Made by a program: the position numbers and the translations under genes. Shown in pieces: positions 723 through 25,475 of a DNA stretch of 30,419 bases. Positions within the stretch are counted from its first letter, which is position 1; each line of letters starts with the position of its first letter. Origin of the DNA: a virus. The DNA is taken from the IMG/VR virus record IMGVR_UViG_3300021959_000245, positions 1 through 30,419 of that record, one strand, 5' to 3'. The notes below the pieces were generated by a model that was not told where the DNA came from, ran no database searches, and saw only the letters and a list, made by a program, of their open reading frames with translations.

Positions 723-1442
723 ATGGCCTCAGTAGGCTACGGGTTATACACATACGGGAAGTCCGACTATGGAACTCCCGTTTATCATTTTGGTGTAGCT
801 ACATCCGCCCAAACATCAGGCTTTACTGCTGAAGCATCAGTTATACGCTATGGTGCATCTGTTATACCAGGCGTATCTGACTTTGATGCTGTTAGCACAG
901 TTATTAAATTAGGGTCATCCACCCTTGCACAAACATCAAACTTTACTGGTGATGGCGTAGTCCTCAAGTTTGGTGCATCAGTTATATCAGCAGTTTCAAG
1001 CGGTTCAGCTACAGGCAGACAAATAGATCGTGGATCAGCGACTATAGCTGAGACATCTGGAATGTCTGCAACAGGTAGACAAATAAACAGAGGTGTTGCA
1101 ACCATTGCTGCGATATCAGACTTTAGTGCAGTAGGTACGCAAATTGATAGGGGTGTTGCAACCATATCATCAACCAGTGATATGACATCTGCTGGGGTCT
1201 TAATTAAATTAGGATCTTCAACATTACCAGAAACATCTGGTATGACGGCCCTAGGCAGACAAATAGATCGTGGTGTTTCTTCTATAGCAGCTATCTCTGA
1301 TATGACTGCTACAGGTCGATTCACCATCAGTGCAAATGCAACTTTACCAGCAGTCTCAGATTTTGAGGCGACTGGTAGACAAATTGATCGTGGTTCAGCA
1401 ACCATTCAACAAACAAGTGGTTTTTCTGCTGTTGGTGGTTTA
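723..1442 (+). repeat. Tandem 60-bp coding repeats (11 units)
   Basis: From codon 21 (783) to codon 240 (1442) the coding sequence consists of eleven contiguous 60-bp units, each starting near an ATA/ATT (Ile) codon. The most similar units share the stretch GGYAGACAAATWGATCGTGG (around 1014, 1254 and 1374), so units have duplicated fairly recently or are kept alike by recombination. The listed span also includes the 60-base unique N-terminal region. The regularity leaves a long open frame on the opposite strand (848-1405), which is a by-product. Confidence 0.8.
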
Positions 1443-1568
1443 AAATGGAATGACATTATAGTTCCAGCAGAGACATGGACAGATCAAACTGCACCTAGCG
1501 GTACATGGACAGAAGAATCTGTACCACCTTCAGACTGGACAACATTAGGCAAACAAGAAGCAGCTTAA
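723..1568 (+). CDS. Tail protein built of eleven 20-residue repeats
   Basis: A 281-residue protein. Residues 21-240 divide exactly into eleven 20-residue units, for example IDRGSATIAETSGMSATGRQ and INRGVATIAAISDFSAVGTQ. Conserved positions are Ile1, Gly4, Ala/Ser6, Thr7, a hydrophobic residue 8, Ser12, Phe/Met14 and Gly18. At DNA level this is a 60-bp period. The last 41 residues contain a different, Trp-rich motif (TWTDQTAPSGTWTEESVPPS). Regular beta-prone repeats between tail and fibre genes suggest a beta-solenoid-like fibre or tail appendage. I do not recognise a named family. No clear Shine-Dalgarno is visible, so coupling to the gene four bases upstream is likely. Confidence 0.75.
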   Translation: MASVGYGLYTYGKSDYGTPVYHFGVATSAQTSGFTAEASVIRYGASVIPGVSDFDAVSTVIKLGSSTLAQTSNFTGDGVVLKFGASVISAVSSGSATGRQIDRGSATIAETSGMSATGRQINRGVATIAAISDFSAVGTQIDRGVATISSTSDMTSAGVLIKLGSSTLPETSGMTALGRQIDRGVSSIAAISDMTATGRFTISANATLPAVSDFEATGRQIDRGSATIQQTSGFSAVGGLKWNDIIVPAETWTDQTAPSGTWTEESVPPSDWTTLGKQEAA

Positions 1569-1580
1569 AGGAATTTTTTT

Positions 1581-2729
1581 ATGGCAGATACATTTACTAC
1601 TAATTTAAACCTTACCAAACCAGAGGTTGGTGCATCCACCGATACCTGGGGAACTAAATTAAACAATGACTTAGATGACCTAGATGCAATCTTTAGTGCT
1701 ACTGGTACATCGGTAGCAATTAACTTAGACGGAGCAGTCATTGATAGCTCTGTCATTGGTGGCACAACTCCAGCAGCAGGTACTTTTACTACTGGTACAT
1801 TTACAGGCTTGGTTGATGCAGCCATTATTGACGGAGATAACTTTAAAGTAGCTGGTGGTCAAGGAACAGACGGACAAGTTCTTACTTCAACAGGAAGTGG
1901 AGTAGCTTGGGAAGATGCAAGTGGTGGTGCTACAGACATTAATGGCTTATCTGATGCTAAGAGCGGTGGAACAAATTTTACCAATTCTTTAATTTTAGGA
2001 CATCAAACAACAGGAACCCTTAGTAATGCAAATCAAAATACAGGTGTAGGTTATGGAGTAATAGATGCGATTACTTCAGGGGATGGAAATTCTGGATTAG
2101 GTTATAACTCACTTGGAGCTATTACAACTGGAAGTTTTAATGCGGCTATAGGTTATGAGGCTTTTGATGCGGTAACTTCAGGCAGTTCAAACACTGCTAT
2201 TGGTACACAAGCTGGTCAAAGTTTAACGACTGGGGTTGAAAGTTTTTATGGTGGAAGATTAACAACAGCATCAAGTGGTGGTGTTAATGGTGAAATAGTT
2301 ATAGGTTACAACATAACAGGAAAAGGTAATTTTACTGCTTTTATAGGTGGCTCAAGTGGAGCTTACAATGAAGCCAATTCATCTTCATGGTCTACAACTT
2401 CTGACAGAAGAATTAAGAAAAACATTGTAGAAAACAGTGTTGGTTTAGAAAAAATAAATCAAATTCAAGTTAAAAACTTTGAATATAAGTTAAAAGATGA
2501 AATAGAAGGTTTACCATCTCATACAGCAATTAATAAACAAGGACAGCAATTAGGTGTTATAGCCCAAGAAATTCAAGAAATATTACCTGAGGTTGTTAAA
2601 GAAGAGTCGACAGGATGTTTAACTGTAAATCCTGATAATATTACTTGGCATCTTGTAAACGCTGTAAAAGAGTTATCAGCTAAAGTTGATAGCCTACATA
2701 ACGAAATTAATATTCTTAAAGGAGAATGA
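1581..2729 (+). CDS. Tail fibre with C-terminal S74 intramolecular chaperone
   Basis: A 382-residue fibre. The N-terminus ([19 protein letters not shown], then [17 protein letters not shown]) is common in phage fibres that dock on the tail. Residues about 125-255 contain repeats of the type [43 protein letters not shown], resembling beta-roll heads of trimeric adhesins. The C-terminal 109 residues form a peptidase S74 domain: Ser274 and Lys279 in [11 protein letters not shown] match the Ser-Lys dyad of this family, and [16 protein letters not shown] is its conserved core. S74 domains trimerise the fibre and then cut themselves off. The end is coiled-coil-like. AAAGGAA precedes the ATG. Confidence 0.88.
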
Positions 2730-2731
2730 AT

Positions 2732-2995
2732 ATGACTCAAACTGTAGCAGAAGTCTTAGCATCAGCAGATGATTCAGTAACACTTATTAATGATATAAAT
2801 GCAAACAACAGTGATTCAAATTATGTGCCAAGTAGTTATAGCCAAAATGAAATAAATAATATGGTTCAGCGTAATGTTGACCATTTAGAAATAATCTTGA
2901 ATTATACAGAGCCAGATGTAGCAGGAAGCTCAGAAGATAAATCATCTTACACTTCAGCGATTGCGACTGGTAAAGCATATATTGCAGCGAACTAA
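2732..2995 (+). CDS. Small conserved phage protein after the fibre gene
   Basis: An 87-residue protein starting MTQTVAEVLASADDSVTLIND. An in-frame ATG six bases earlier (2726) is also possible, but AAAGGAG at 2718-2724 is spaced seven bases from ATG 2732 and only one from 2726, so the later start is preferred. The second half, NMVQRNVDHLEIILNY then DKSSYTSAIATGKAYI, is a helical pattern seen in small proteins beside tail-fibre genes of marine phages. It may be a fibre assembly or connector protein; no function is established. No membrane segment or signal peptide is seen. Confidence 0.6.
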   Translation: MTQTVAEVLASADDSVTLINDINANNSDSNYVPSSYSQNEINNMVQRNVDHLEIILNYTEPDVAGSSEDKSSYTSAIATGKAYIAAN

Positions 2996-6244: not shown

Positions 6245-6850
6245 ATGGCAAATTCATTTCAAAAACTAGCAGACATTCTTAACATAGAAACCGCAAGACT
6301 ATCCGGTGATCCTAGAAGATTACAAGTTGCATCGCAGATGCAAGAAACAAAAGAATTAAAACAAGCAACCGCACAGAGTGAGGCTGAGATCAACAAAGCG
6401 ATTGACGAGTCTAACTTGCCCGAAAGTCAAAAGAGATTATTAAAGGCTTTAAGTCTAAGAGAGAAAGCTGCCTTGTTCCTAGAAACACAAAAGCCTGAGA
6501 AAAAATTAACCCCGAATGAAATGGTTAAAATGGAAGAGGCTAAAGTTTTACAAAAATTACAAATAGTTGATGGAGATGTAACAAAATTAACTCCATATGA
6601 AAAAAATATTTATGACAACTACATTAAAGGCGGAGGCATAAATCCGTTTATGGAAGCTCTTGCCAAACAAATAAATGGCAGCACCGCAACTCCTCCACCT
6701 GTATCCAAAACATATACTGTAACAAGCGGTATATATAAAGGAGATTCAGCAGATAACATTATTAGCAATGCTAAAAATTTAAACCCACAATTAACTAGAG
6801 AAGAAGTTATAAAAAATTTAATATCTCAGGGTATTATAGCCGAGGGATAA
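6245..6850 (+). CDS. Ejection-module helical protein
   Basis: A 201-residue protein with mostly charged, alpha-helical composition (residues 20-100, including QMQETKELKQATAQSEAEIN and LPESQKRLLKALSLREKAAL). A short Pro-rich linker (STATPPPVSK) leads to a C-terminal segment, YTVTSGIYKGDSADNIISNA, with a helix NPQLTREEVIKNLISQGII. No catalytic motif or membrane segment is visible. It lies two bases after the previous candidate ejection gene and three bases before the giant one, so it probably belongs to the same virion complex, perhaps like the middle internal protein of T7-type phages. The family is not recognised. Confidence 0.58.
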   Translation: MANSFQKLADILNIETARLSGDPRRLQVASQMQETKELKQATAQSEAEINKAIDESNLPESQKRLLKALSLREKAALFLETQKPEKKLTPNEMVKMEEAKVLQKLQIVDGDVTKLTPYEKNIYDNYIKGGGINPFMEALAKQINGSTATPPPVSKTYTVTSGIYKGDSADNIISNAKNLNPQLTREEVIKNLISQGIIAEG

Positions 6851-6853
6851 AAC

Positions 6854-9800
6854 ATGGCCGAATTCATAGTTCCGCCTCCGTCTAAAAAAGAATCAGAAAA
6901 TACAAAAAGCGGATTTGTATTACCAAAACCAACACCAACACCAGAAACTGCTGGTTTTGTTTTGCCCGAACCAACTCAAGAAGGAACATCTTTCTTTGGC
7001 GATATCCCGGAAGCAGAATTAAGAAAAGATCCTGAATTTATTAAAGCCGCAAAAAGCATTTATGAATGGAATGAGGGTAGAACTTTTGGTTTTAAAAACA
7101 AAGAACCAAAAAAATTAAACTCAGACGAACAGTATGCTGATTACGCTCTTAGATACATGGGATGGTTTAATTACAACATACCTAAAATGAGTAAAGAAGC
7201 TGCAGATTTATACCATGATGCAACAGATCAACAAAAAATTGATTTTGTAACTTTGATGGATAAATACGATCAAAAGAAAGTTAGTTTAGCTGGTACAGGT
7301 AGATTTGCCGCAGGTGTGCTTTTAGATCCCAGCACCTATGTTGGCATAGGAACTTTTGGTGCTGGATTAGCCGCAAGACAAACAGCAAAAGCGGCCGCCA
7401 AAAGATCTATAAGAGAAATGGTTAAATCTGGTTTGAAAGTTGGTGGAACTATTGGTGCATTGGAAGGTGCAACTTATACAGTTGCCGATGATGCTTTGCG
7501 TCAATCAGCAAGAATACAATCTGGTCAACAAGAAGGATTTGATTTTGGGCAATCAGCTAAAGCAGCATCTTTGGGATCTGTATTAGGCGGCACTTTGGGT
7601 GGATCTGCTGGTGCTGTATCAGGAAGATTTAAAGGTAAAAAAGTTGTTCAATTTGAAGATAGTGTAGATAAAGAACTTGTTGATCTAGGGTTGGATCCAC
7701 AAAAAGCAAGACAAGCTGAAACATATGATCCTTGGGCGGATCCAATAGAAACGCAAGATCCAGTTAAAAGAGCAAAACAAATAGAAAAAAATGTTAAATA
7801 CCAGGAGCAATATAAAGATTATAGAGCCGGTAAACTCCAAGATATTAAGATTGACACAAAGCCAAAAGAAATAAACATAAAGCCTGGAACTTTGGGAGAG
7901 CTAGTCATAAATGATCCGCAAGGATTTATTAAAGAAGTTTACAATGTTGATGCTCCAGATGTTTCTTATCCAAAATTAAAAATAATTAAAATTGATGATG
8001 GCCAAACTGGTGAGCCTAGATTTAACTTGGTTCAAAATCTTTCTTTAAAAGATGCCTATGATGAACAAGATCTATTTAATATAGCAAGAGCAAATAAATT
8101 ATCTGAAGAAGATCTTATTAATAAAAAAGAAGATGTAATTATCGAAAGAGATTTCAACACTCTTGATGATGCAAAAATATTTGCAAGTGAAATAGTTGAA
8201 GAAATTAAATTGCAACAACCAAAAATAGAGGCTCCGAAACCAAAAACCAAAAGCAATGCACTTCCAGAAAGTTTAAAGATACCGCCCAAGCCAAAACTAA
8301 GAACTGCCAGACAATATCTTAAAGGAGCAATTGGAAAAGACTCAGGAGATATGGGTGATTTTTTACAAGCACTGGAAGGCAAGAGCGGTCAATTACCACC
8401 AGCTTACAGGGCCAAACCTGGAACTACTGGAATTGGTGCAGATGGTGTTATTGCTCGTATGCAAGAAGATGGTTTTTATCCGAGAGCGACCATAGAAGGA
8501 GATCGTGGAACAACTGCCGGAGAAGCTGAATCTTTTTATGACGATATAGCTATAGATAAAACACATCCAGACGATCAATTAGCATTGGATCTTTACAACC
8601 AACAAGTTAATGAAATACAGGCAAAAAAAGAATTGCTTAATGAGTATGGTGTAGATCCCAGGGGAATGAGCGATGAAGATGTTGCAAAAGTCTTGCAAGA
8701 AATAGACGAACAAAAAATACCACCAGCACGAATAAAAGAAACTCCTCCAATGGAAATTTATGAACAAGCTATTAGGCAAACAGACGAACCTATGCTTGGC
8801 ACTACAGATTTTCAACAAGATACTACAGTTGCTTTAAACCAAAAGGTTATAGATGTTGGAACGCAAATTATGGATGAGTTGGATATACCAAGAAATCCAA
8901 AAGTTTTAATATCAGACCAAATAAAAGAAGCTATCTTATTGGCAAACGAAAACAAAATTTATAGAGATAAGTTTGCCGAAGTTTTGTCAAGAAACAATTT
9001 AACTGTAAATCAATTAAGTGATTTCTTTAGGGAAAGCGTTGCCGATTCGGCAAGAAGGATGCAGCAACTTTCTGTCATAAAACAATCGTTAAAAAAAGTT
9101 GGTCAAGACCTTGGTGAGATTGAAAAACAAGAAGGTTTTTATTCTAATTTTATTGAAAATTATTCAGACATAATTAGATCCCTGGACAACATAAGAAGGG
9201 GTTTATTAGTTAGTCAGATTGCTACAGCCATGCGTAATAATACTGCACAAATTGGCCGGGTAATGTTAAATACTTTGGTCCAAGCGTTTGATGGTGCTTT
9301 AAATCAAACATTTAATCCAGTAAGAAGGGCGTTTGGAGCAAAAGAACAATTAGTAGATCACACCAAATCTTTTAGATTAATGATGAATCTAACCAAAGAT
9401 AAATCCAAGGCAAAAGACTTAACTGAATTTTTAACCAAATATTATGTGAATGAGGGAGATAAATTATTTACCAAATATGCGTCTGAGGTTGCTGATTCAT
9501 CTAAAGCAAAAGTATTTAAAGCTGCACAAAAAGCAGTAGATGGTCTTAACTTCCTTAACAGGATGCAGGAGTTTTATTATCGAAGAGGTATGTTTGCAAC
9601 ATCAATACAAAACACTCTGGCAGAAAAAGGCATTGATATAAACAAAATTGGTATTGGTGATGATCTATTAGATTATATTTCTGCTGATGATGTGTCAAAA
9701 GCGGTAGATGATGCTTTGTATTTTACTTATGCCAAGACTCCAGATAATACATTTCTTAAAAAGTTTGTAGAAATTTCTAATTCAATACCATTTATTACAA

Positions 9801-11541: not shown

Positions 11542-11847
11542 CTATAAGGATTTTTTTAATAGCTCCTCTGGTATCTTATTACCATCACTATCTAACCCGT
11601 AAACCTTTTCAAGTTCTAGGTCTATGTAATGCTTGGCCTTCATAAGATCTTCAATCTTGTCATGCTTATCTCTGGTCACAAGTTTAATTACATTCCCCAA
11701 ACACCAACCAATATTGTTTGCGACTATGTAATCTATCGGCTCAATATTGGTTCCCTTATTGTAGTGATCTCCACCTACCTGGTTGTTGGAAGCCAAGCGA
11801 TCTCTTGCTTGATCCCAGTCCTGTGGTGTAGCTTTGTCTATTGACAT
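11542..11847 (-). CDS. DUF3310 family phage protein
   Basis: A 101-residue protein. NNQVGGDHYNKGTNIEPIDY (residues 21-40) followed by IVANNIGWCLGNVIKLVTR and KIEDLMKAKHYIDLELEK is the full signature of DUF3310, a small family found in very many phages and sometimes labelled nucleotide kinase-like. The biochemical role is not established; its frequent place among phage nucleotide and DNA genes suggests a role in DNA metabolism. AAGGAG is spaced well before the ATG. The promoter region is shared, divergently, with the HTH gene at 11932, and a perfect inverted repeat lies close to the predicted start point. Confidence 0.88.
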   Translation of the reverse strand: MSIDKATPQDWDQARDRLASNNQVGGDHYNKGTNIEPIDYIVANNIGWCLGNVIKLVTRDKHDKIEDLMKAKHYIDLELEKVYGLDSDGNKIPEELLKKSL

Positions 11848-17496: not shown

Positions 17497-17522
17497 AGGA
17501 AGGCCCCTGGAAGGGCCTCCCT
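17497..17522. repeat. GC-rich hairpin
   Basis: AGGAAGGCCC and GGGCCTCCCT pair over ten positions with one mismatch around the loop CTGGAA. No T run follows on the plus strand; on the minus strand a mildly T-rich ATTTGTATTGTTT follows. It could be a terminator reading leftwards or part of an origin or control structure with the repeats just upstream. Confidence 0.55.
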
Positions 17523-17541
17523 ATATTCAGCGAGTGTATGA

Positions 17542-17985
17542 ATGAACGATCAGTTCTGGTGGATTGAAAATTCCATACCGGATAAAGAGAGTGAATCCGG
17601 ATGCGTTCGTGCGTCCGTGCTGAGTAAGTATAAGAGTTATTCAAAATTGAAATCGTGCGTGTGGAAGTGGTTTCGTTCCCGTGCGGGAGATACATCCTTG
17701 CGTCCGGCAACCAAGCTCGTTTTATGGTCCATCTGCGAAAGACATAGGATCGATACGTTCAGTTCGCATGATGCCTATGTTTATTATGGCAAGATGACCG
17801 GGTTAAACAGACGTACAGTCGGGCGTTGCGTGGATGAGTTGGTCGAGGCGGGGATCTTATGGATTGCGGTCGAGGGTGAGCGTAGGATCGTTAAACAAGC
17901 AAAACCGGGCGTGCGGAAACATTTGTTGCTCGTTGGCCTGGGCGTCGTAATGATCGAGGAATTGTCTGAGCAAGGGGATCGCTGA
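17542..17985 (+). CDS. GC-rich winged-helix DNA-binding protein, possible initiator or regulator
   Basis: A 147-residue protein. Residues about 52-112 form a winged helix: SLRPATKLVLWSICERHRID, then YVYYGKMTGLNRRTVGRCVD with recognition helix about 89-104, then ELVEAGILWIAVEGERRI as the wing. This is like the HTH_36 type of phage and plasmid replication initiators and also of transcription regulators. The N-terminus is Trp/Ser-rich with no known domain. The gene is visibly more GC-rich than its neighbours and contains copies of the CGTTCGTGCG repeat. It lies just after a dyad-repeat array and hairpins. The SD is weak, and an ATG four bases earlier is in another frame. Confidence 0.68.
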   Translation: MNDQFWWIENSIPDKESESGCVRASVLSKYKSYSKLKSCVWKWFRSRAGDTSLRPATKLVLWSICERHRIDTFSSHDAYVYYGKMTGLNRRTVGRCVDELVEAGILWIAVEGERRIVKQAKPGVRKHLLLVGLGVVMIEELSEQGDR

Positions 17986-18104
17986 AGGTATAGTTTTCTG
18001 CCTGTTGTAGGATGGCCGGATCGATTGGGTATTCGTCGTATCCGTTCGTGCAGACGGGGTGGTGGAGATCTTCGTTCGTGCGTGGGGATTTATCGTTCGT
18101 GCGT
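17604..18104. repeat. CGTTCGTGCG repeat cluster, left island
   Basis: Exact CGTTCGTGCGT occurs at 17604-17614, 18073-18083 and 18094-18104. Related copies are CGTTCGTGC at 18043-18051, TCGTGCGT at 17653-17660 and CGTTCCCGTGCG at 17674-17685. Between 17986 and 18126 there is no convincing gene: a 36-codon plus frame from 18013 and a 72-codon minus frame (17891-18109) both owe much of their sequence to the repeat. The same words recur near 21335-21535. Confidence 0.7.
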
Positions 18105-18126
18105 TGCATGGTTAAATATTAAAGGT

Positions 18127-18177
18127 GGGGCGAGATGCGTTCAAGGGGATTGGAGAAAAACCCTAAACATTCGCCCC
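18127..18177 (-). terminator. Candidate terminator of the minus-strand cassette
   Basis: GGGGCGA (18127-18133) and TCGCCCC (18171-18177) are perfect complements, with a further AGGG/CCCT pairing inside the loop. Read on the minus strand the stem is followed by ACCTTTAATATTT. It lies ten bases beyond the stop of the last cassette gene (18187). The long loop and broken T run make it a moderate candidate. Confidence 0.42.
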
Positions 18178-18186
18178 GGGTATTGA

Positions 18187-18288
18187 TTATCTGTTCTCGT
18201 AATGCTTGAGTACCGCATAAAGAATGATAACTGCGATAAGCCATATAAGAAAACCAATACCAAAAATGTAGCCTATTATCTCAATCAC
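18187..18288 (-). CDS. 33-residue single-pass membrane protein
   Basis: GTG 18288 starts inside the end of the preceding gene (overlap eight bases). The product begins with residues IEIIGYIFGIGFLIWLIAVI after the initiator and ends ILYAVLKHYENR. Nearly the whole length is one hydrophobic helix with a basic C-terminal end. Small membrane peptides of phages often alter host membrane proteins or act in lysis; nothing more specific can be said. It is the last gene of the minus cassette, just before the terminator candidate. Confidence 0.55.
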   Translation of the reverse strand: MIEIIGYIFGIGFLIWLIAVIILYAVLKHYENR

Positions 18289-18403
18289 GCCCGGACCCCC
18301 AACAATCCCGGCAAGTTGTTCCGTCCGGCATAGTGCCAAAGCCTTTGCAACTCGGACACTTACCCATAAATTGTTTAATGCGTTGTATTAGATTAACTAT
18401 CAT
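18281..18403 (-). CDS. 40-residue DnaJ-type zinc-finger protein
   Basis: The product MIVNLIQRIKQFMGKC opens with a short amphipathic helix, then carries CPSCKGFGTM (Cys16, Cys19) and CRDCWGSGRD (Cys31, Cys34). Two C-x2-C-x-G-x-G type knuckles 12 residues apart are the zinc module of DnaJ co-chaperones, here without a J domain. Such mini-proteins occur in phages and could bind protein or RNA. An internal Met13 could serve as an alternative start. The stop overlaps the next gene's GTG. Confidence 0.62.
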   Translation of the reverse strand: MIVNLIQRIKQFMGKCPSCKGFGTMPDGTTCRDCWGSGRD

Positions 18404-18415
18404 CTTCGGTTTCCC

Positions 18416-18604
18416 CTAATCATACTTACATTCAAAAATTCTATTAGTAATTATTTCAAGTATCTCATATCTATCGTTATAAATATCTAGTCCTTGCTCT
18501 CGTGCTATATCTTTAATCTCATCATCTAGCAAACCTTTTTTGTCTTGGTCTAAAACATTGTCAAATAAGTTTTCTAGTATCATAGTGTTGATTGTATTAC
18601 TCAT
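18416..18604 (-). CDS. 62-residue acidic helical protein
   Basis: Preferred start ATG 18604 (MSNTINTMILENLFDNVLDQ), because GAGG lies upstream and the start overlaps the previous gene's end by eight bases; an in-frame ATG at 18631 would add nine residues. The sequence is acidic and helical (LLDDEIKDIAREQGLDIYND, ILEIITNRIFECKYD). No known motif is seen. It belongs to the overlapping minus-strand cassette. Confidence 0.58.
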   Translation of the reverse strand: MSNTINTMILENLFDNVLDQDKKGLLDDEIKDIAREQGLDIYNDRYEILEIITNRIFECKYD

Positions 18605-18749
18605 CTTCGCTATCCTCATAACATACGCCACAAAGCATTTTATCTTTAGGCACTTGGTTTAAATCTTCATAGCCATTATCTGCATAATTATTATTATCAA
18701 TAATATAATCAGCTTTATAGCCGCACTCATTACAACATCCTCTGCTCAT
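18597..18749 (-). CDS. 50-residue zinc-ribbon protein
   Basis: MSRGCCNECGYKADYIIDNN has Cys5, Cys6 and Cys9; the C-terminal half has LCGVCYEDSEDE with Cys40 and Cys43. Two C-x2-C knuckles about 30 residues apart suggest a small zinc ribbon, and the linker is Asn/Asp/Tyr-rich. The ATG overlaps the preceding stop as ATGA, and its own end overlaps the next start. Zinc-ribbon micro-proteins in phages can bind host transcription or translation factors; that is only a possibility here. Confidence 0.62.
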   Translation of the reverse strand: MSRGCCNECGYKADYIIDNNNYADNGYEDLNQVPKDKMLCGVCYEDSEDE

Positions 18750-18946
18750 AATTCACCCCCGCTATATGATTCCTGGATAACGATATCCCTTTTGCGTTTA
18801 TCCTGGTAAGTTTTAACAATCTTCCCGCATGGATAAGTTAAAATCCAATAGTCCTTGCTGAAGTCTTTACTCATGCTTGGGATGTTTTCCCGTTCCGTTC
18901 TCAGCAATTGCCGGGCCTGGTCTATCATGTCTTTATATTGAGTCAT
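18746..18946 (-). CDS. 66-residue basic protein of unknown function
   Basis: AGAGGT precedes ATG 18946. The product is MTQYKDMIDQARQLLRTERE, then a Tyr/Trp-containing centre (DFSKDYWILTYPCGKIVKTY) and a basic stretch (QDKRKRDIVIQES) with end YSGGEL. A helix plus short beta hairpin is likely. It overlaps both neighbours by four bases (ATGA junctions), so translation is coupled. No family is recognised. Confidence 0.6.
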   Translation of the reverse strand: MTQYKDMIDQARQLLRTERENIPSMSKDFSKDYWILTYPCGKIVKTYQDKRKRDIVIQESYSGGEL

Positions 18947-19098
18947 AGTTTTACCTCTTTTAAATATGGTTCTCTTAAATCTTCCGTAAATTGAAAAGCA
19001 TCTTCAAGATCGCAGTCATCATCCGGAATCGAATATTTGTTTTTCAATTCTTGTAATGCACAATGTAGGCTTTCTAATTTTATATATTTAATATTCAT
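18943..19098 (-). CDS. 51-residue protein of unknown function
   Basis: MNIKYIKLESLHCALQELKN begins a helix, followed by the acidic KYSIPDDDCDLEDAFQFTED and LREPYLKEVKL. It starts within an ATGA overlap with the gene before (stop 19095) and ends in one with the gene after. GGGGGAAG lies close upstream. The size and coupling support a real gene; the function is unknown. Confidence 0.58.
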   Translation of the reverse strand: MNIKYIKLESLHCALQELKNKYSIPDDDCDLEDAFQFTEDLREPYLKEVKL

Positions 19099-19283
19099 TC
19101 TTCCCCCTTGGTTAATTGAATTAATTTATCCTGGTTAAATATTAATACCTGGTGAATCTTGTTAATTTTCTCCAGGGCGGTTTGGATAGATGGTTCACCG
19201 GTGGTGATATCTTCCTTTAAATCCAGGGCGGTATAACTTAGGTCCGCCAAGTCCTGGATGACTTCGTTGAGTGTATCGTTCAT
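19095..19283 (-). CDS. 62-residue helical protein of unknown function
   Basis: AAGGAGT lies at a proper distance from ATG 19283, a clear ribosome site. The product MNDTLNEVIQDLADLSYTAL then DLKEDITTGEPSIQTALEKI and NKIHQVLIFNQDKLIQLTKG is helical and could form a two-helix coiled coil. It is separated from the preceding gene by 16 bases and overlaps the next by four. No known domain is seen. Confidence 0.62.
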   Translation of the reverse strand: MNDTLNEVIQDLADLSYTALDLKEDITTGEPSIQTALEKINKIHQVLIFNQDKLIQLTKGEE

Positions 19284-19299
19284 TATGTTTTACTCCTTA

Positions 19300-19686
19300 T
19301 TAAAATAATGATGGTTGGTTTGCCTTTGCCCCTGGTTTCGTCAGAGGCTCAGAGTTAAAAGTTTTTATATTCTTGATAGTTTCATCCTGTTTAATGCTTT
19401 CCGTTGCGTGTGGCTCATGTGAGACGCTAGAAAAGAAGTCGTCCTGGAATCCGTTGGAATCTTTCTTTCCGTTCTCCTGGTAAAACCATTCAATGGCCTG
19501 GTCCATGGTAAAAGTTCCGGACATATGGCAAAAGTGGGATCTGTACCCGGTTTCAGTTAGTGGGATCGGGTGATCGTCCAGGGTTTGAACTTCGATATGG
19601 TCAATGCCTTCAAAGTAGTTCCTGGTAATAGTTAGATCGACCGCAACGCCTCGGTAATTAATACGGGTTGTTTCTTCTTGTTTCAT
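19300..19686 (-). CDS. 128-residue protein with TETGYRSHF motif and C-terminal QPSLF
   Basis: The first 75 residues (INYRGVAVDLTITRNYFEGI, HIEVQTLDDHPIPLTETGYR, then SHFCHMSG and MDQAIEWFYQEN) resemble a small domain of unknown function found in phages and integrative elements, where PIPxTETGYRSHF is conserved. The rest is polar and probably disordered, ending KANQPSLF. QPSLF at the extreme C-terminus resembles the QLxLF peptide that docks on the bacterial beta sliding clamp. Its start overlaps the preceding gene by four bases. The function is unknown; a clamp-associated replication or anti-host role is a hypothesis. Confidence 0.62.
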   Translation of the reverse strand: MKQEETTRINYRGVAVDLTITRNYFEGIDHIEVQTLDDHPIPLTETGYRSHFCHMSGTFTMDQAIEWFYQENGKKDSNGFQDDFFSSVSHEPHATESIKQDETIKNIKTFNSEPLTKPGAKANQPSLF

Positions 19687-19871
19687 AATACTTTGCCCGT
19701 ATCAGCGTCAATGATTGCAATGGTTTCATAATCGTCATTTCTAAGAACCCATAATGGATATTCTTCTAAAACTGTTGATTTATCCCGGCTCGGAATATCC
19801 AACTCGCCAACTAATCCCAGGACATCCCGGGCATGGCAGTTGTACTTATATTTGGCTTGTTCAAAAGTCAT
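19683..19871 (-). CDS. 62-residue protein of unknown function
   Basis: GAGGG lies eight bases before ATG 19871. The product, MTFEQAKYKYNCHARDVLGL then VGELDIPSRDKSTVLEEYPL and WVLRNDDYETIAIIDADTGK, mixes a first helix with a C-terminal beta hairpin. It overlaps both neighbours in ATGA junctions. No recognised domain; the single Cys and His are not arranged as a metal site. Confidence 0.6.
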   Translation of the reverse strand: MTFEQAKYKYNCHARDVLGLVGELDIPSRDKSTVLEEYPLWVLRNDDYETIAIIDADTGKVL

Positions 19872-20011
19872 TTTTTAACCCTCGCTATAAAACAATCTAA
19901 ATGCCCGGCCTGGATTAATCTTTTTTGTTTATCCAGGCACTTGCTCAGATCTTGGGACCGCATCACAACGACCGGCCCCTGGTTATCATATTCAATTATT
20001 ACTTCGTACAT
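19868..20011 (-). CDS. 47-residue protein of unknown function
   Basis: MYEVIIEYDNQGPVVVMRSQ then DLSKCLDKQKRLIQAGHLDC and FIARVKK suggests beta-beta-helix-beta. The ATG shares a base with the preceding TAA (TAATG), with GAGGT upstream, and its TGA overlaps the following ATG. Coupling on both sides supports a real gene despite its size. Function not recognised. Confidence 0.58.
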   Translation of the reverse strand: MYEVIIEYDNQGPVVVMRSQDLSKCLDKQKRLIQAGHLDCFIARVKK

Positions 20012-20457
20012 TAGGACCACCTCTCACACTCTAGGAACTGATCGCATATGTTCCAGGACTCGGAGTCTTTAGGAACCAGGACATGGGCACCATCGAACCA
20101 ATCCATGTACCAATATTCGATAATGTCTATTTCTTTATCTTGGGTGATATAAATGCGGAACTCGTCAGATGGTCCGCCCCAGGATAATTGAAGCCGATAA
20201 TATCCGGCCTTTCTGCCCTCGCCCTCGACATAATCCCAAGATTGGGCGGTTTGGTTTACATAGTCATATAGATCTTCGTATTCGTGGAAATAATCGCCCC
20301 GCTTTTTGTCTATAACTTCCAAGGCAATTTGTTCGCCCTCGGTTGCGTCCTGGTATTCCTCGAAGAATTCCCGGGCCTTTTTATAATCGGCCTCGGTTTC
20401 GTTAAATTTGCTTTCCACCAGGTCAGCACATTTTGGATCTTGGTTTGCGTTTATCAT
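20011..20457 (-). CDS. Conserved phage protein of unknown function, 148 residues
   Basis: AGGAG precedes ATG 20457. The N-terminal half is acidic and helical (ADYKKAREFFEEYQDATEGE). The C-terminal half is a beta domain with GYYRLQLSWGGPSDEFRIYI, then IDIIEYWYMDWFDGAHVLVP and WNICDQFLE. Strings like LQLSWGGPSDEF and IEYWYxDWFDGA recur in phage proteins of unknown function, so the family is real though unnamed. It is the largest cassette gene, first after the hairpin at 20492-20529, and overlaps the next gene by one base. Confidence 0.68.
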   Translation of the reverse strand: MINANQDPKCADLVESKFNETEADYKKAREFFEEYQDATEGEQIALEVIDKKRGDYFHEYEDLYDYVNQTAQSWDYVEGEGRKAGYYRLQLSWGGPSDEFRIYITQDKEIDIIEYWYMDWFDGAHVLVPKDSESWNICDQFLECERWS

Positions 20458-20491
20458 TCTTTTTATCTCCTATAAAAATAAATTGGTTATA

Positions 20492-20529
20492 CCACGAAAG
20501 CCCCAAATAATCGGGGCCTGGTTTCGTGG
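20492..20529. terminator. Hairpin between minus-strand genes (bidirectional terminator candidate)
   Basis: CCACGAAA (20492-20499) and TTTCGTGG (20522-20529) pair perfectly, and GCCCC with GGGGC extend the stem inside with small bulges. On the minus strand the stem is followed by TATAACCAATTTATTTTTA; on the plus strand by GTTCTTGTTTT. It separates the 85-residue gene (20539-20796) from the rest of the cassette and could end that transcript. Confidence 0.6.
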
Positions 20530-20538
20530 GTTCTTGTT

Positions 20539-20796
20539 TTAACTTGCGTAAAACTTCCTTACATATTGCGAGCTGTAGATTGGCTCTCCGGAATGACTCC
20601 ATGGTTGATGTTTGCCCAGGGATTTATAAATTGATAATCCGGCTTTTATGATTGGCTCTCCGTAATTATCCTCTTTGTAAAAGTTATACTTTAACAATCT
20701 AGCTATCGCAGAAAATAAAGATGTAGTTTCTATAACATCACATACACTGCTTCGGATATCTGCATTACTATCAAAACAAATTACTCTATATATCAT
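20539..20796 (-). CDS. 85-residue protein of unknown function
   Basis: The frame could start at TTG 20871 (110 residues), but ATG 20796 has AAGGAG nine bases upstream and is preferred. The product begins MIYRVICFDSNADIRSSVCD and continues VIETTSLFSAIARLLKYNFY, GEPIIKAGLSIYKSLGKHQP and SHSGEPIYSSQYVRKFYAS. It is beta/alpha mixed with a basic C-terminus. The first segment resembles small phage proteins with a MxYRVxCF start. It is divergent from terS and isolated from the rest of the cassette by a hairpin. Confidence 0.58.
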   Translation of the reverse strand: MIYRVICFDSNADIRSSVCDVIETTSLFSAIARLLKYNFYKEDNYGEPIIKAGLSIYKSLGKHQPWSHSGEPIYSSQYVRKFYAS

Positions 20797-20924
20797 CCTT
20801 TCTATCTCCTTAAAATGCCCAGGTATTCCCCTAGGTTCCTTAAATATCTCATATCTAATATTAGATTGCAACTTATTTATAAAAAAAGATGATTAACTTA
20901 CTCAAAACTGCATTAAAATAAACC
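20797..20924. other. Divergent gap before terS
   Basis: 128 bases between the minus-strand cassette and terS. If the TTG start at 20871 were used, part of this would be coding. It is AT-rich with short A runs (around 20880-20887), but I find no convincing -35/-10 pair or inverted repeat. No SD precedes the terS ATG (TTAAAATAAACC-ATG). Confidence 0.4.
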
Positions 20925-21419
20925 ATGCCAAAGAAACCAGGAAGGAAAAAAATCAAGCTGAATGATCCGGACACTCTTAATAAAATAATTGCTCTCGGAT
21001 CCCAGGGCCTAACCTCGGGCCAAATTGCTCGTTGTCTTGGTGTCTCCTGGTCAACCATTGATAGACGCAGAAAAGAAAATGCGGAAATTGAGGAAGCTAT
21101 AAAAAAAGGGGAAGCATTAGGCGTAGAAAAAATATCTAACGCATTAATGACTTCCGCACGGGATGGCAATGTTACAGCACAAATCTTTTACCTCAAGAAC
21201 CGGGCACCGGATCAATGGGCAGACAGACAGGAAATGAATCATAACCTGGACCTGGCCGGGATCTTATCCAACGCTAACTCCAGGATCCTCGACGTACGCC
21301 CGGACGAACCGGCCGAGCAACTCAACCTCCAGGACGCACGGGAACGAACGAACGTTCGCACGAACGCCCAGGGCGACCAGGACGACCATAACGAACAATC
21401 GGACGGGGTTTCCTCTTAG
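20925..21419 (+). CDS. terS: Terminase small subunit
   Basis: A 164-residue protein. Residues 26-50 (SQGLTSGQIARCLGVSWSTI then DRRRK) form the HTH of small terminases; ENAEIEEAIKKGEALGVEKI and NALMTSARDGNVTAQIFYLK with NRAPDQW follow, the family's central oligomerisation helices. TerS binds the packaging site and presents DNA to TerL. The tail (about 110-164) is GC-rich, charged and low-complexity (DVRPDEPAEQLNLQDARERT, NVRTNAQGDQDDHNEQSDG), and its codons include copies of the CGTTCGTGCG repeat in reverse. TerL follows after a 173-base spacer. Confidence 0.85.
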   Translation: MPKKPGRKKIKLNDPDTLNKIIALGSQGLTSGQIARCLGVSWSTIDRRRKENAEIEEAIKKGEALGVEKISNALMTSARDGNVTAQIFYLKNRAPDQWADRQEMNHNLDLAGILSNANSRILDVRPDEPAEQLNLQDARERTNVRTNAQGDQDDHNEQSDGVSS

Positions 21420-21535
21420 TGGATCCCCTTTTCTCCCCAATGAAGCCGAGAGAATATAGGCCCCGTCCGTTCGTGCGTGTGTGCGTGTGTGTAATAAATA
21501 GAGGATTAACGATTTGACCCCCCCCTTTCGTGCGT
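21335..21535. repeat. CGTTCGTGCG repeat cluster, right island (terS end and terS-terL spacer)
   Basis: Reverse-orientation copies lie in the terS tail: CGCACGGGAACG at 21335-21346 (matching CGTTCCCGTGCG at 17674) and CGCACGAACG at 21357-21366. Forward copies follow in the spacer: CGTTCGTGCGT at 21468-21478 and TTTCGTGCGT at 21526-21535. The words are those of the left island at 17604-18104. Position at the terS gene makes a packaging-recognition role possible. Confidence 0.68.
21472..21493. other. Alternating purine-pyrimidine tract (Z-DNA-prone)
   Basis: From 21472 to 21493 every base alternates pyrimidine and purine in a CG/TG/TA run of 22 bases, composed of CGTG and GTGTG steps, beginning within a CGTTCGTGCGT copy. 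Such tracts can adopt left-handed DNA under negative supercoiling. It lies in the noncoding terS-terL spacer. Confidence 0.6.
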
Positions 21536-21553
21536 GGGGGGGGCGTATATACG
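21518..21553. repeat. C8/G8 hairpin with repeat-unit loop, plus palindrome
   Basis: Eight Cs (21518-21525) and eight Gs (21536-21543) form a perfect stem; the ten-base loop is TTTCGTGCGT, the repeat word found elsewhere. Immediately after it, CGTATATACG (21544-21553) is a perfect ten-base palindrome. An A/T-run segment (about 21570-21588) and then the terL ATG follow. It could be a protein-binding packaging signal or a terminator; the T run is some 25 bases away, which is unusual for an intrinsic terminator. Confidence 0.7.
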
Positions 21554-21592
21554 TATAACTGTTGAACTAAAATTTTTTAATTTTTTTGAAAT

Positions 21593-23125
21593 ATGAAATA
21601 TCCAATTAACCAAGAAAGAGAATTAATGACCGCAGTTTGGTCACTTAACATCAAAGATGATCCATTAAACTTTGTTAAATTTGTCTTCCCCTGGGGTGAA
21701 AAGGATACCCCCCTCGAACATTTTACTGGTCCTCGTAAGTGGCAGGAAAAAATTTTGCGAGATATTGCAAACCATATTAGAAAAAACGAAGCCATTGATT
21801 TACCAGAGATGTTTAGATTGGCAGTTGGTTCAGGCCGGGGTATTGGAAAGTCTGCATTAGTCTCTTGGATTATTTTATGGATGCTTTCTACCAGGTTAGG
21901 AGCAACCATTATTGTTACAGCAAATACAGAACAACAGCTTAGAACTAGAACATGGGCGGAATTAGGTAAATGGCTAACTTTATCCATAAATTCTCACTGG
22001 TTTAACAAGACTGCTACCGCAATAAAACCAGCACAATGGTTCGAAAATGCCCTCGTTGAGGACCTAAAAATCGATACTGGTTACTATTACGCACAAGCAC
22101 AGCTATGGAGCGAAGAAAACCCGGATGCGTTCGCTGGTATTCACTCATCATACGGAGTTTGTTTAATTATGGACGAGGCTTCCGGTATACCAGCACCGAT
22201 ATATTCCGTATCCGAAGGATTCTTTTCCGAACCCACGAAAAATCGCTTTTGGTTTACCTTCTCTAACCCACGCAGGAACTCAGGACCTTTCTATGACTCC
22301 TTTCACTCTAAGCGCAAGTTCTGGAAAACCGAACAAATAGACTCCCGCACGGTCGAGGGCACGGACAAAGAACTATTCCAACGCATGATCGAACAATATG
22401 GCGAAGATTCTACTGTTGCCAGGGTCGAAGTTATGGGCGAATTTCCGTCCGCAGACGATGATACTGTCATACCTATGGAACTTGTCCGCACAGCCATGGG
22501 CAGAGATGTGTCTCTGACCGCATCTGAGCCTATTTTATGGGGATTAGATGTTGCGAGGTTTGGTGGTGATAATTCTGCTCTGTGCATACGCCAGGGAAAT
22601 ACTGTTTTTGAAATCATTACTTTTCCGTCCATGGATTTAATGCAATTGTGCGGAGCGGTAAAAAATAGATTTGACGATGCTACTGTGATGGAACAACCGC
22701 AAGAAATATTAATTGATGTGATTGGTTTAGGTTCCGGAGTGGTTGATCGTTTGCGTGAGCAAAACCTTCCCGTGCGTGGCGTAAATGTTGCCGAGTCACC
22801 GAGTACCAAAAAAAATTATTTGAACCTTCGTGCGGAACTTTGGTTTGCAGTTAAAGACTGGTTGGCCCAAAGAGATTGTCGTTTACCAGAGGATGATGAA
22901 TTAGCATCTGAACTTGCATCACCGCAATACAAATATACTTCTAGCGGAAAAATAAAAATTGAATCGAAAGATGAAATGCGAAAGCGTGGTATAAAATCTC
23001 CGGACAAAGCAGATGCACTTGCATTGACCATGGCAAGTTCTGCCGCAAGTTTTAGTGGAAGCGAGAGTTATTTCGGTTATAATTTCAAAAAACCTTTAAA
23101 ATCTCGAATCATACGAGTGGGATAG
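21593..23125 (+). CDS. terL: Terminase large subunit
   Basis: A 510-residue protein. ATPase motifs: RLAVGSGRGIGKSALVSW (Walker A about 79-87) and GVCLIMDEAS (Walker B, Asp194-Glu195). The C-terminal RNase H-like nuclease shows WGLDVARFGGD (Asp319), ILIDVIGLGSG (Asp375) and SPDKADALALT (Asp474). The enzyme pumps DNA into the prohead through the portal and cuts the concatemer. Length and motif spacing are normal. No clear Shine-Dalgarno precedes the ATG; an alternative is the internal Met at residue 12. The portal gene follows after six bases. Confidence 0.93.
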   Translation: MKYPINQERELMTAVWSLNIKDDPLNFVKFVFPWGEKDTPLEHFTGPRKWQEKILRDIANHIRKNEAIDLPEMFRLAVGSGRGIGKSALVSWIILWMLSTRLGATIIVTANTEQQLRTRTWAELGKWLTLSINSHWFNKTATAIKPAQWFENALVEDLKIDTGYYYAQAQLWSEENPDAFAGIHSSYGVCLIMDEASGIPAPIYSVSEGFFSEPTKNRFWFTFSNPRRNSGPFYDSFHSKRKFWKTEQIDSRTVEGTDKELFQRMIEQYGEDSTVARVEVMGEFPSADDDTVIPMELVRTAMGRDVSLTASEPILWGLDVARFGGDNSALCIRQGNTVFEIITFPSMDLMQLCGAVKNRFDDATVMEQPQEILIDVIGLGSGVVDRLREQNLPVRGVNVAESPSTKKNYLNLRAELWFAVKDWLAQRDCRLPEDDELASELASPQYKYTSSGKIKIESKDEMRKRGIKSPDKADALALTMASSAASFSGSESYFGYNFKKPLKSRIIRVG

Positions 23126-23131
23126 TTTTAC

Positions 23132-25321
23132 ATGGCAAAAGATTACGAAGACAAAATGGAAGATATGCTTGAGAAAGAAGAGATGGAATCTTCTGAAGTA
23201 GAAGTCGAAGTTAATGAAGAAGTTGATATGGAACACCTTGCTGGTGTTATCAAATCCGAGATGGATGATGCAAAAGATTTCATTCATCAAGTCGGTGCAG
23301 AACGAGCAGAATCAACTGAGTATTATCTTGGTGAACAACCACAAGCACAATCTAGTATGCAGTCTGAATTTGTTTCAACTGATGTTAGAGACACTGTACT
23401 TTTTATGTTGCCATCTATCATGCGTACATTCTTTGGTACTAAAAAGATTGTCGAATTTGTACCGCATGGCCCGGAAGATATCCCTGTTGCAGAGCAACAA
23501 ACCAATTATGTTAATTACATCATTCAAGAAAAAAATCCTGGCTTCCAAGTTTTATACGATGCGTTTAAAGATGCCTTGGTTAGAAAGAGTGGTTTTGTCA
23601 AAGTCTTTTGGGATGATTCTATTACCTCAACAACGAGCGAATACACAGACTTAGATCCTATTTCATATCAAGCCTTAGTTCTTGATCCTAATGTAGAGAT
23701 TGTCAAAGAATCTGTCACCATGGAAACCATTACACAAATGGATCCTTTGACTGGTGAAGAGGTCACACAAGAAATTCCTACTAAGTATGATCTCACTATT
23801 CGTAGAATTAAATCTAAAGATCAAGTGTGTATTGAATCAATACCACCGGAAGAAGTTTTAATTTCCAGGAACGCTAGAGATTTAGAATCTGCATCTTATG
23901 TTGCACATAGAATGATTAAATCTGTTTCTGATTTGGTTGCTATGGGTTATGACCAAGATGAGATTGAGCAATATGCAACACAAAGTTCAAGTGCGGTTGA
24001 CCCAGAAGCCTATGATGAAATCGAAGCAAGAAATCCATTTGACAACATGATATACCCGGATCGAAGTGATACCGGAGCAAAAGAAGTTTTATATGTAGAA
24101 CATTATTTATTTTATGACTTCGATGGTGATGGCATCGATGAAAGAATTAGAGTTTGTACTGCGGGTGAAGGCGTAAATGTGCTGAATGTAGAACAATGGG
24201 ATGATCTTCCTATTACTATGTTCTGCCCAGATCCTGAACCACATACTGCAATCGGTTCGTGTCCAGCAGATTATCTCAAGCCTATCCAGGCCGCAAAATC
24301 ACAGATTATGCGAGATACTCTTGATTCATTAGGACACTCTATCTTTCCTCGTATGGCTGTCGTTGAAGGTCAAGTCAATATTGATGATGTTCTCAATACT
24401 GATATCGGACAACCTATTCGAGTTCGTGCCCCTGGGATGGTTCAACCCTTTACAGTACCCTTCGCTGGTAAAGAGGCTTTTCCTGTTCTTGGATACTTAG
24501 ATGAGGCAAAAGAGAATAGGACTGGTGTGTCTAAAGCATCTGCCGGTTTAAATGCAGACGCCTTGCAATCAAGCACCAGTGCAGCAGTATCCGCTACCAT
24601 GTCAGGAGCACAAGGCCGAATTGAAATTATTTGTAGACATTTTGCAGAAGGTGGACTCAAGCAACTATTTAAAGTTGTTAATAACTTAATTATCAAGCAT
24701 CAAAACGCACAAGATGTCTTTAGACTTGAAGGTCAATTTATTCCTGTTGATCCTAGATACTGGGAATCAGATAAAGACATGGTGGTCAATGTAGCTATCT
24801 CTAAATCTTCCGATCAAGAGAAGTTCGGCATACTTGCACAAATGGCACAAAAACAAGAACAAATATTACAAACACTTGGAGTAAACAATCCATTGGTATC
24901 TTTACAGCAATACTCTAATACGCTCACACGCATGATTGAACTTGCTGGATTCAAAGATGCTAATAGCTTTATTAATACTCAAGTACCACCTATGCCACCC
25001 GCGCCCCCAGAGCAACAACAACCTGATGCAGCTACCATGCTCGCACAAGCAGAAGCTATGAAAGCTCAAAACCAAGCGCAGAAAGCTATCATTGATGCTG
25101 AGACTGATCGCATGAAAATTATCATGGATGATGACAGACAGCGTGATGAGACAGAAGCACAGATTAGACTAAAAGCAGCAGAATTAACCGCTAAATACGG
25201 AGCGCAAGTCAACATAGCAGAAATCAATGCTATCATGGAGCGTGACCGAGAAAACATTAGGCAAACTGCAAAGGATCAAGCTCAAGGACTATTTACTGGC
25301 AATGGCAATCAAGTTATATAA
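23132..25321 (+). CDS. Portal protein (SU10/P22-like)
   Basis: A 729-residue protein. After a Glu-rich N-terminus, DDAKDFIHQVGAERAESTEY and FVSTDVRDTVLFMLPSIMRT followed by FFGTKKIVEFVP are hallmark portal segments; KDALVRKSGFVKVFWDD, PPEEVLISRNARDLESASYV and SYVAHRMIKSVSDLV follow. The C-terminal barrel is Gln/Ala-rich, ending in a coiled coil (about 650-725, AQAEAMKAQNQAQKAIIDAE). It would form the dodecameric vertex ring for DNA packaging and tail attachment. Length is typical of SU10/P22-type portals, agreeing with the SU10-like adaptor at the left edge. Its end overlaps the next small gene by 20 bases. Confidence 0.9.
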   Translation: MAKDYEDKMEDMLEKEEMESSEVEVEVNEEVDMEHLAGVIKSEMDDAKDFIHQVGAERAESTEYYLGEQPQAQSSMQSEFVSTDVRDTVLFMLPSIMRTFFGTKKIVEFVPHGPEDIPVAEQQTNYVNYIIQEKNPGFQVLYDAFKDALVRKSGFVKVFWDDSITSTTSEYTDLDPISYQALVLDPNVEIVKESVTMETITQMDPLTGEEVTQEIPTKYDLTIRRIKSKDQVCIESIPPEEVLISRNARDLESASYVAHRMIKSVSDLVAMGYDQDEIEQYATQSSSAVDPEAYDEIEARNPFDNMIYPDRSDTGAKEVLYVEHYLFYDFDGDGIDERIRVCTAGEGVNVLNVEQWDDLPITMFCPDPEPHTAIGSCPADYLKPIQAAKSQIMRDTLDSLGHSIFPRMAVVEGQVNIDDVLNTDIGQPIRVRAPGMVQPFTVPFAGKEAFPVLGYLDEAKENRTGVSKASAGLNADALQSSTSAAVSATMSGAQGRIEIICRHFAEGGLKQLFKVVNNLIIKHQNAQDVFRLEGQFIPVDPRYWESDKDMVVNVAISKSSDQEKFGILAQMAQKQEQILQTLGVNNPLVSLQQYSNTLTRMIELAGFKDANSFINTQVPPMPPAPPEQQQPDAATMLAQAEAMKAQNQAQKAIIDAETDRMKIIMDDDRQRDETEAQIRLKAAELTAKYGAQVNIAEINAIMERDRENIRQTAKDQAQGLFTGNGNQVI

Positions 25322-25475
25322 CCTAGAAGTTTTAGTTGACGACCTAGTTTATGTCGGTAGTGATATTAGAGCCAAAAGCCAAGAGGATGCAGTCAGAATA
25401 CTTGGTATTATTTCTGGTGGTGAAGTAACCGAGGATTCAGAAGTATTAAGCTGTGAGGAGAAAACTTTACACTAA
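25302..25475 (+). CDS. 57-residue protein after the portal
   Basis: ATG 25302 lies in the last codons of the portal gene. The product, MAIKLYNLEVLVDDLVYVGS then DIRAKSQEDAVRILGIISGG and acidic EVTEDSEVLSCEE, looks like a small beta-alpha fold. The open frame extends further upstream but only as a shadow of the portal gene. It ends overlapping the ATG of the next tiny gene. The function is unknown. Confidence 0.58.
   Translation: MAIKLYNLEVLVDDLVYVGSDIRAKSQEDAVRILGIISGGEVTEDSEVLSCEEKTLH

Follow-up and report, generated by a model that had tools for sequence, protein, structure and literature searches.

We describe a block of twelve small, leftward open reading frames (ORFs) in the genome of an uncultured tailed phage, which we interpret, with a probability of roughly 0.5, as an accessory operon of this phage clade that would serve in host takeover or anti-defence and in which one product, a6, would be tethered to the host sliding clamp. 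The window, by which we mean the whole stretch of DNA analysed, is a 30.4 kb record (30,419 nucleotides; IMG/VR record IMGVR_UViG_3300021959_000245) filed as a virus record. Twelve minus-strand ORFs encoding proteins of 33-148 amino acids (aa) occupy positions 18187-20796, with the neighbouring genes running the opposite way. To the left lie genes for a RecB-like exonuclease, a Sak4-like annealing protein and a primase/helicase, followed by the replication-initiation-like gene repO (17542-17985, plus strand; PHROG 6643, E = 6e-5), which forms the left border. The right border is the terminase small subunit gene terS (20925-21419, plus strand; PHROG 309, E = 2e-29), beyond which come terL and the portal gene.

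The small-gene block and its turnover at a fixed site

Both GC and AT skew flip over the block, and within this interval ORFs of at least 40 aa take up 92% of the minus strand versus 41% of the plus strand. In comparison with relatives, a3, a4, a6, a7, a9, a10 and a12 are enriched in substitutions at third codon positions, and a13, set against 10 relatives, displays 49, 35 and 103 changes at codon positions 1, 2 and 3, respectively; near relatives of the same length were lacking for a1, a5 and a11, and a8 offered too few changes. The skew inversion, the strand-specific ORF coverage and the third-position bias in several genes together show that the block is real. Its genes also appear to be coupled, as overlaps of exactly 4 nt (161/433), 1 nt (72/433) and 8 nt (41/433) dominate the junctions in 44 homologous cassettes, a pattern indicative of translational coupling. 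These sequence features support reading the block as a leftward, translationally coupled operon, and the original prediction, which placed twelve minus-strand ORFs in exactly this interval and proposed that they are translated as one coupled unit, holds on both counts.

Related contigs were fetched using terL, a3 and a6 as queries, and 44 distinct contigs, the window included, contain both repO and terS. A minus-strand block of small ORFs measuring 1.2-3.9 kb is present between these two genes in all 44, with ORFs of at least 40 aa covering 65-92% of the minus strand in these blocks. Simple tiling of the 44 cassettes yields about 477 ORFs (median 64 aa) grouped in 176 families, of which 117 are singletons, both the ORF and the family counts depending on the tiling rules used. 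Where TerL is 96-100% identical, the Jaccard family similarity to the window is 0.26-0.67; at 83-89% TerL identity it is 0-0.18 in nearly all contigs, the exception being L079 (0.38). The only persistent genes are a5 (37/44 cassettes) and a9 (34/44). The turnover at fixed borders that had been proposed as a check on the prediction is thus what we observe, since 44/44 contigs keep the slot while its content changes strongly. The opposite pattern, in which many phages would have kept the same genes in order as part of their replication or virion core, was not seen. Judged by this distribution of sequences, the block is an accessory cassette. The suggestion that it might hold an undescribed system is not supported insofar as one multi-gene machine was meant: the genes turn over independently of each other, and we therefore do not see them as parts of a single machine.

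Most cassette families have no match. The matched cargo includes a DNA methyltransferase family (PHROG 757, E = 2e-53) in four cassettes, an MT-A70-type methyltransferase (PHROG 359, E = 2e-70) in one cassette, a deoxyribonucleotidase and an HNH/endonuclease VII-type protein, and in one relative a 413-aa ORF situated between the cassette and terS (L048:2122-3363, plus strand) combines ParB-N and DNA methyltransferase-like parts, a family assignment made by eye. Anti-defence regions typically carry orphan methyltransferases (PMC11541004). A PHROG match labelled 'decoy of host sigma70' belongs to the HNH/endonuclease VII-type protein, from contig L030, and was not taken to mark a takeover factor. 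Two further families, F27 and F43 (L013:5366-5551, minus strand, and the L003 and L005 cassettes), resemble N-terminal fragments of the RecB-like exonuclease that the phage itself encodes, and in F43 this fragment is fused to part of a Sak4/AAA ATPase (AAA_24, E = 9e-6). A recombination-prone slot that gathers orphan ORFs and mobile cargo without any shared purpose could also produce such an assortment, and the abundance of singleton families, the one HNH/endonuclease VII-type gene and the recombination-gene-like fragments F27 and F43 are consistent with it. We nonetheless consider neutral or selfish turnover of this kind improbable, as strand, borders, coupling and the genes a5 and a9 are kept over deep divergence and the third-position bias signals selection on several proteins.

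The a6 family and its predicted C-terminal clamp peptide

The 128-aa protein a6 (19300-19686, minus strand) comprises a TGYRSHF domain (residues 1 to about 80), a disordered linker (residues 87-123) and a C-terminal beta-clamp-binding-type peptide, QPSLF (residues 124-128), whose codons together with the stop codon occupy 19300-19317 on the minus strand. In an AlphaFold2 (AF2) model the N-terminal domain of about 80 residues is folded, with a predicted local distance difference test (pLDDT) score of about 85, and the tail that ends in QPSLF is disordered. The peptide is invariant in 17/17 phage members. In a permissive plasmid search, small proteins encoded on plasmids of Sulfitobacter, Salipiger and Sinorhizobium matched the a6 domain along its full length and ended in QLSLF, QPSLF or QLTLF, with linkers lacking recognisable similarity, and the phage and plasmid profiles align with an hhalign probability of 98.1 (P = 6.7e-14). 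Phage and plasmid members thus share the C-terminus Q[LP][ST]LF, while additional members, drawn from the genomes of alphaproteobacteria and from other viral contigs, end in QLSLF, QISLF, QLDLFG, QQSLF, QMSLF or QMSLL; the family end is almost always present, a genomic copy (L161) being an exception. Neither a6 nor the member on contig L164 has a match in cultured phages. Ends of the form Q-x-[STDG]-L-F with at most two trailing residues were found in 35 of 2,502 distinct ORFs of at least 60 aa, and 33 of these 35 are family members, a figure that includes many near-identical phage proteins, corresponds to about a dozen independent cases and comes from loci fetched partly because the family is present. 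The members ending in QMSLF and QMSLL came to light only after this count.

The beta-clamp consensus is Q-L-x-L-F, usually located at the C-terminus (PMC4549789), and a conserved QPSLF-type end that fits this motif makes it likely that a6 binds the host beta clamp. The clamp-binding-like C-terminus remarked on in the original prediction is accordingly well supported as a conserved feature of a family, which we name here the TGYRSHF clamp-peptide family and which was previously unnamed, lacks a Pfam or NCBIfam model and is common to phages and plasmids. Other proteins with similar elements were encountered alongside it. On the Salipiger plasmid pPABY8 (L156), a second, unrelated protein of 122 aa ends in QASLF on the same stretch as the TGYRSHF gene (probably 6625-6993, plus strand, coordinates derived from its length). 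Two longer phage proteins carry clamp-like motifs near the C-terminus, one with a TGYRSHF segment fused to a ParB N-terminal domain (L171:1698-2444) and one with a TGYRSHF segment encoded after a ParB gene (L176:5548-6276).

The neighbourhoods of family members point toward anti-restriction genes. In the phage contig L170, a family gene that follows a gene with a CHC2 zinc finger (DnaG-like) ends 13 nt before ardC (ArdcN, E = 1.8e-29), and in a bacterial genome locus (L187) ardC (E = 2.5e-41) lies about 1.4 kb upstream of the family gene on the same strand. KlcB aligns with the TGYRSHF family profile at a probability of 92.5 (P = 5e-7), over 35 columns only, and with the phage-only a6 profile at a probability of 77; from these profile alignments KlcB probably shares the TGYRSHF domain. 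A BLAST comparison of a6 with the KlcB-like protein of Afipia found the motif alone, and profiles were required. One genomic member (L162:892-1752) has an N-terminal extension like the KlcB-like GQ-x-G-S-F segment and ends in QQSLF, and may represent a bridge between KlcB and a6.

A second cassette protein, a3 (20011-20457, minus strand; 148 aa), belongs to the WGGPSDEFR family (PHROG 36747, function unknown), has an AF2 model with a pLDDT of 91.8 and gives two significant matches in BFVD, both to uncharacterised phage proteins. Its homologues occur at 49 viral loci and in Vibrio phages, Afipia and Maricaulis, and none was found in plasmids. In Afipia clevelandensis, a KlcB-like gene stands directly after the a3 homologue and a umuC homologue is about 2 kb away; umuCD often bounds plasmid anti-defence islands (PMC11541004). 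In these neighbourhoods, the relatives of a3 and those of a6 share a similar mobile-element setting. The host-takeover and anti-defence function suggested by the original prediction thus gains indirect support: the methyltransferases in the slot, the proximity of the a6 family to ardC together with its probable relation to KlcB, and the Afipia a3 homologue abutting a KlcB-like gene all favour it, and the role itself we infer.

Two other explanations start from the same clamp peptide. No DNA polymerase was recognised among the window proteins scanned, and the phage thus probably uses the host polymerase and clamp. In the main rival explanation the cassette is a replication helper module: repO and the primase/helicase would open phage forks, to which a6 would bring the host's clamp and polymerase III, while the other small proteins would tune host replication. 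The adjacency of the cassette to repO, the lack of a recognised polymerase, the conserved clamp peptide and the DnaG-like gene ahead of the L170 family gene are all compatible with this idea. We find it doubtful, however, as a replication essential should not be missing from 27/44 cassettes, as the ardC association and probable KlcB relation point elsewhere, and as the record may be a fragment, with a polymerase gene lying outside it. Alternatively, a6 might shut off host replication by blocking the clamp in competition with the host proteins that bind DnaN, much like known phage clamp inhibitors, an idea to which its small size, flexible tail and consensus-like C-terminal peptide lend themselves. 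This seems distinctly unlikely given that plasmids carrying the same family would suffer from blocked host replication and that the phage itself probably needs the clamp.

Remaining genes, upstream elements and flanking region

The other cassette genes, all on the minus strand, are described here in the order of transcription. The first, a1 (20539-20796; 85 aa, function unknown), is present only in this phage and a near-identical twin contig and forms the singleton family F60. The 59-aa ORF a2 (20423-20602) strongly overlaps both a1 and a3 and holds a stem-loop sequence downstream of a1; it is probably not a gene, and its omission from the original prediction was correct. Downstream of a3, a4 (19868-20011; 47 aa, or 50 aa with a GTG start at 20020; function unknown) has a start codon that overlaps the a3 stop codon (TAATG), and is followed by a5 (19683-19871; 62 aa), the most persistent gene of the cassette, whose relatives occur only in viral contigs of this kind. 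Beyond a6 come a7 (19095-19283; 62 aa, function unknown), found in 17/44 cassettes, the accessory a8 (18943-19098; 51 aa; 4/44) and a9 (18746-18946; 66 aa), second in persistence and without a match in cultured phages. The protein a10 (18597-18749; 50 aa; 7/44) is a putative zinc ribbon (CxxC...CxxC, a motif identified by eye), a11 (18416-18604; 62 aa; 4/44) gives weak matches to PHROG 9309 and 28469, and a12 (18281-18403; 40 aa; 11/44) contains a putative DnaJ-like half zinc knuckle (CPSCKGFG...CRDCWGSG; PHROG 3931, E = 3e-4). The two zinc knuckles proposed earlier are thus retained as resemblances of a10 and a12 to zinc ribbons or knuckles in CxxC spacing only. The last of the twelve, a13 (18187-18288), is a 33-aa peptide with a single transmembrane segment and a GTG start that overlaps a12 by 8 nt; it was preferred over a tiled ORF at 18119-18244 (minus strand), which was dropped since its substitutions lack third-position bias.

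Single-sequence scans of the cassette proteins against Pfam, PHROG and NCBIfam gave almost no matches. ArdA, ArdB/KlcA and ArdC had no Pfam match in a1-a10 or in 133 ORFs from the relatives' cassettes, a11-a13 having been scanned against PHROGs only.

A 72-aa ORF at 17891-18109 (minus strand), antisense to the 3' end of repO, is probably an additional cassette gene: it is open in 15 near relatives and contains a conserved GYDEYPIDPAIL segment, and the cassette thus probably extends leftward to include it. A VDPNILRQAEEY segment in cassette family F30 resembles GYDEYPIDPAIL. Repeats of the CGTTCGTGCG type are found in three copies at 18039-18110, right of repO, with related copies within repO (17600-17617), and are kept in most near relatives and missing from several others. 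An iteron-type origin at 18039-18110 was considered and not adopted, as the repeats lie inside the conserved antisense ORF and are absent in several relatives.

Upstream of a1, a probable sigma70-like promoter (20843-20871, minus strand; TTGCAA-17-GATATT) faces leftward into the cassette, and near relatives have TTGACA-GAGAAT. Its consensus score is 8/12 in the window and usually 10/12 in near relatives, and in most groups a sigma70-like element precedes the first start codon by 42-47 nt even though the first gene differs. A possible 5' leader hairpin (20818-20835, minus strand; CCTAGG-GGAATA-CCTGGG) follows the expected transcription start and precedes the Shine-Dalgarno sequence. It folds in the window and in near relatives with what look like compensating changes (CTCGGG/CCCGGG), and many distant cassettes have a hairpin of unrelated sequence at the same place. 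Both the promoter and the hairpin are candidate elements read from the nucleotide sequence.

Portals related to that of the window, at 33-44% identity, occur in Manatee Spring phages, Sinorhizobium phage phiM5, Pelagibacter phage HTVC106P and Methylophilales phage Venkman. The uncultured source clade is probably marine; the DNA of 17500-25400, spanning the cassette to the portal, had no match in the cultured phage collection. One Manatee Spring phage with a related portal (L143, MW202711) has seven tiny leftward genes at 1405-2813 (minus strand) adjoining a repA-annotated gene, one of the seven being annotated as MqsA-like. In the window itself, a solitary leftward gene upstream of the replication module (11542-11847, minus strand) matches nucleotide kinase PHROG families. 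The opposite orientation of the cassette between replication and packaging modules would also fit a leftward immunity operon controlling lysogeny. We give this explanation very little credence, as no repressor-type or integrase match was found among the cassette proteins scanned, nor among the other window proteins scanned, the helix-turn-helix of terS apart.

Proposed role and comparison with known systems

In the interpretation we favour, an accessory host-takeover or anti-defence operon, host RNA polymerase would read the cassette early from the sigma70-like promoter, and its small proteins would adjust the host for infection. The QPSLF peptide on the flexible tail of a6 would dock in the pocket through which the host sliding clamp (DnaN) binds other proteins, keeping the TGYRSHF domain on replicating DNA, where it could shield the incoming or replicating phage genome from DNA-acting host defence or block a host partner of the clamp; plasmids and other phages would be served in the same way by their homologues. 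Protection of phage DNA by a6, suggested by the gene neighbourhood, is the weakest step. We tentatively propose, at less than even odds, that a6 stands for a family, so far undescribed, of protection proteins that plasmids and phages tether to the clamp and that would act alongside anti-restriction of the ArdC and KlcA types in guarding newly replicated foreign DNA.

Several observations weigh against this proposal. The presence of a6 in only 17/44 cassettes indicates that it is dispensable or replaceable, and its C-terminus, although a fit to the QLxLF-like clamp motif, has P where the consensus has L. Searches of a3 and a6 against the PDB, by sequence and by fold, gave no usable match or known fold. 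The alignment between a6 and KlcB is short, and both KlcB and the Afipia KlcB-like protein are without the clamp peptide, suggesting that the domain may serve a separate role. Removing klcB from pB10 did not significantly change the outcome of a published restriction test (PMC11602122). Finally, the 8/12 score of the window's promoter, taken alone, is not above that of shuffled sequence.

The slot between repO and terS is a locatable site that can be mined, having provided 176 small-protein families from 44 contigs, and the a6 family offers a testable handle, an apparent address label for the host replication clamp used by phages and mobile plasmids. If the proposal is true, the replication fork may be the place from which mobile elements protect or control their DNA, and KlcB, whose gene in IncP plasmids neighbours a known antirestriction gene, may be part of this pathway.

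Among known systems, the plasmid leading-region anti-defence islands (PMC11541004) likewise group small genes, most of them unknown, with orphan methyltransferases, and both a6 family members and an a3 homologue occur in plasmid or element regions with a relaxase, ardC or umuC nearby. In contrast to those islands, the present block lies in a phage between repO and terS and has no oriT, single-stranded DNA-binding protein or recognised anti-restriction gene. ArdC and polyvalent-protein neighbourhoods (PMC5512222) are comparable in that family members stand beside or near ArdcN-MPTase genes in L170 and L187, whereas a6 is small and free-standing and the window's cassette has no recognised ArdC; searching the text of that paper gave no mention of 'clamp' or KlcB. 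KlcB, from the IncP klcA-klcB-korC operon, shares with a6 a segment centred on SETGYRSHF and is encoded beside the antirestriction gene klcA, but it is considerably larger (344-358 aa versus 128 aa), has extra N- and C-terminal regions and no clamp peptide, and aligns over about 35-41 columns.

Phage inhibitors that bind the clamp, such as Gp168 of phage Twort, are small phage proteins, as is a6, for which we propose the sliding clamp as a target; what sets a6 apart is a canonical linear peptide common to plasmid proteins. T4- and T7-like phages possess early accessory regions of many tiny, fast-changing, coupled genes; unlike these, the block described here runs leftward, belongs to an uncultured clade and occupies a fixed site between replication and packaging genes.

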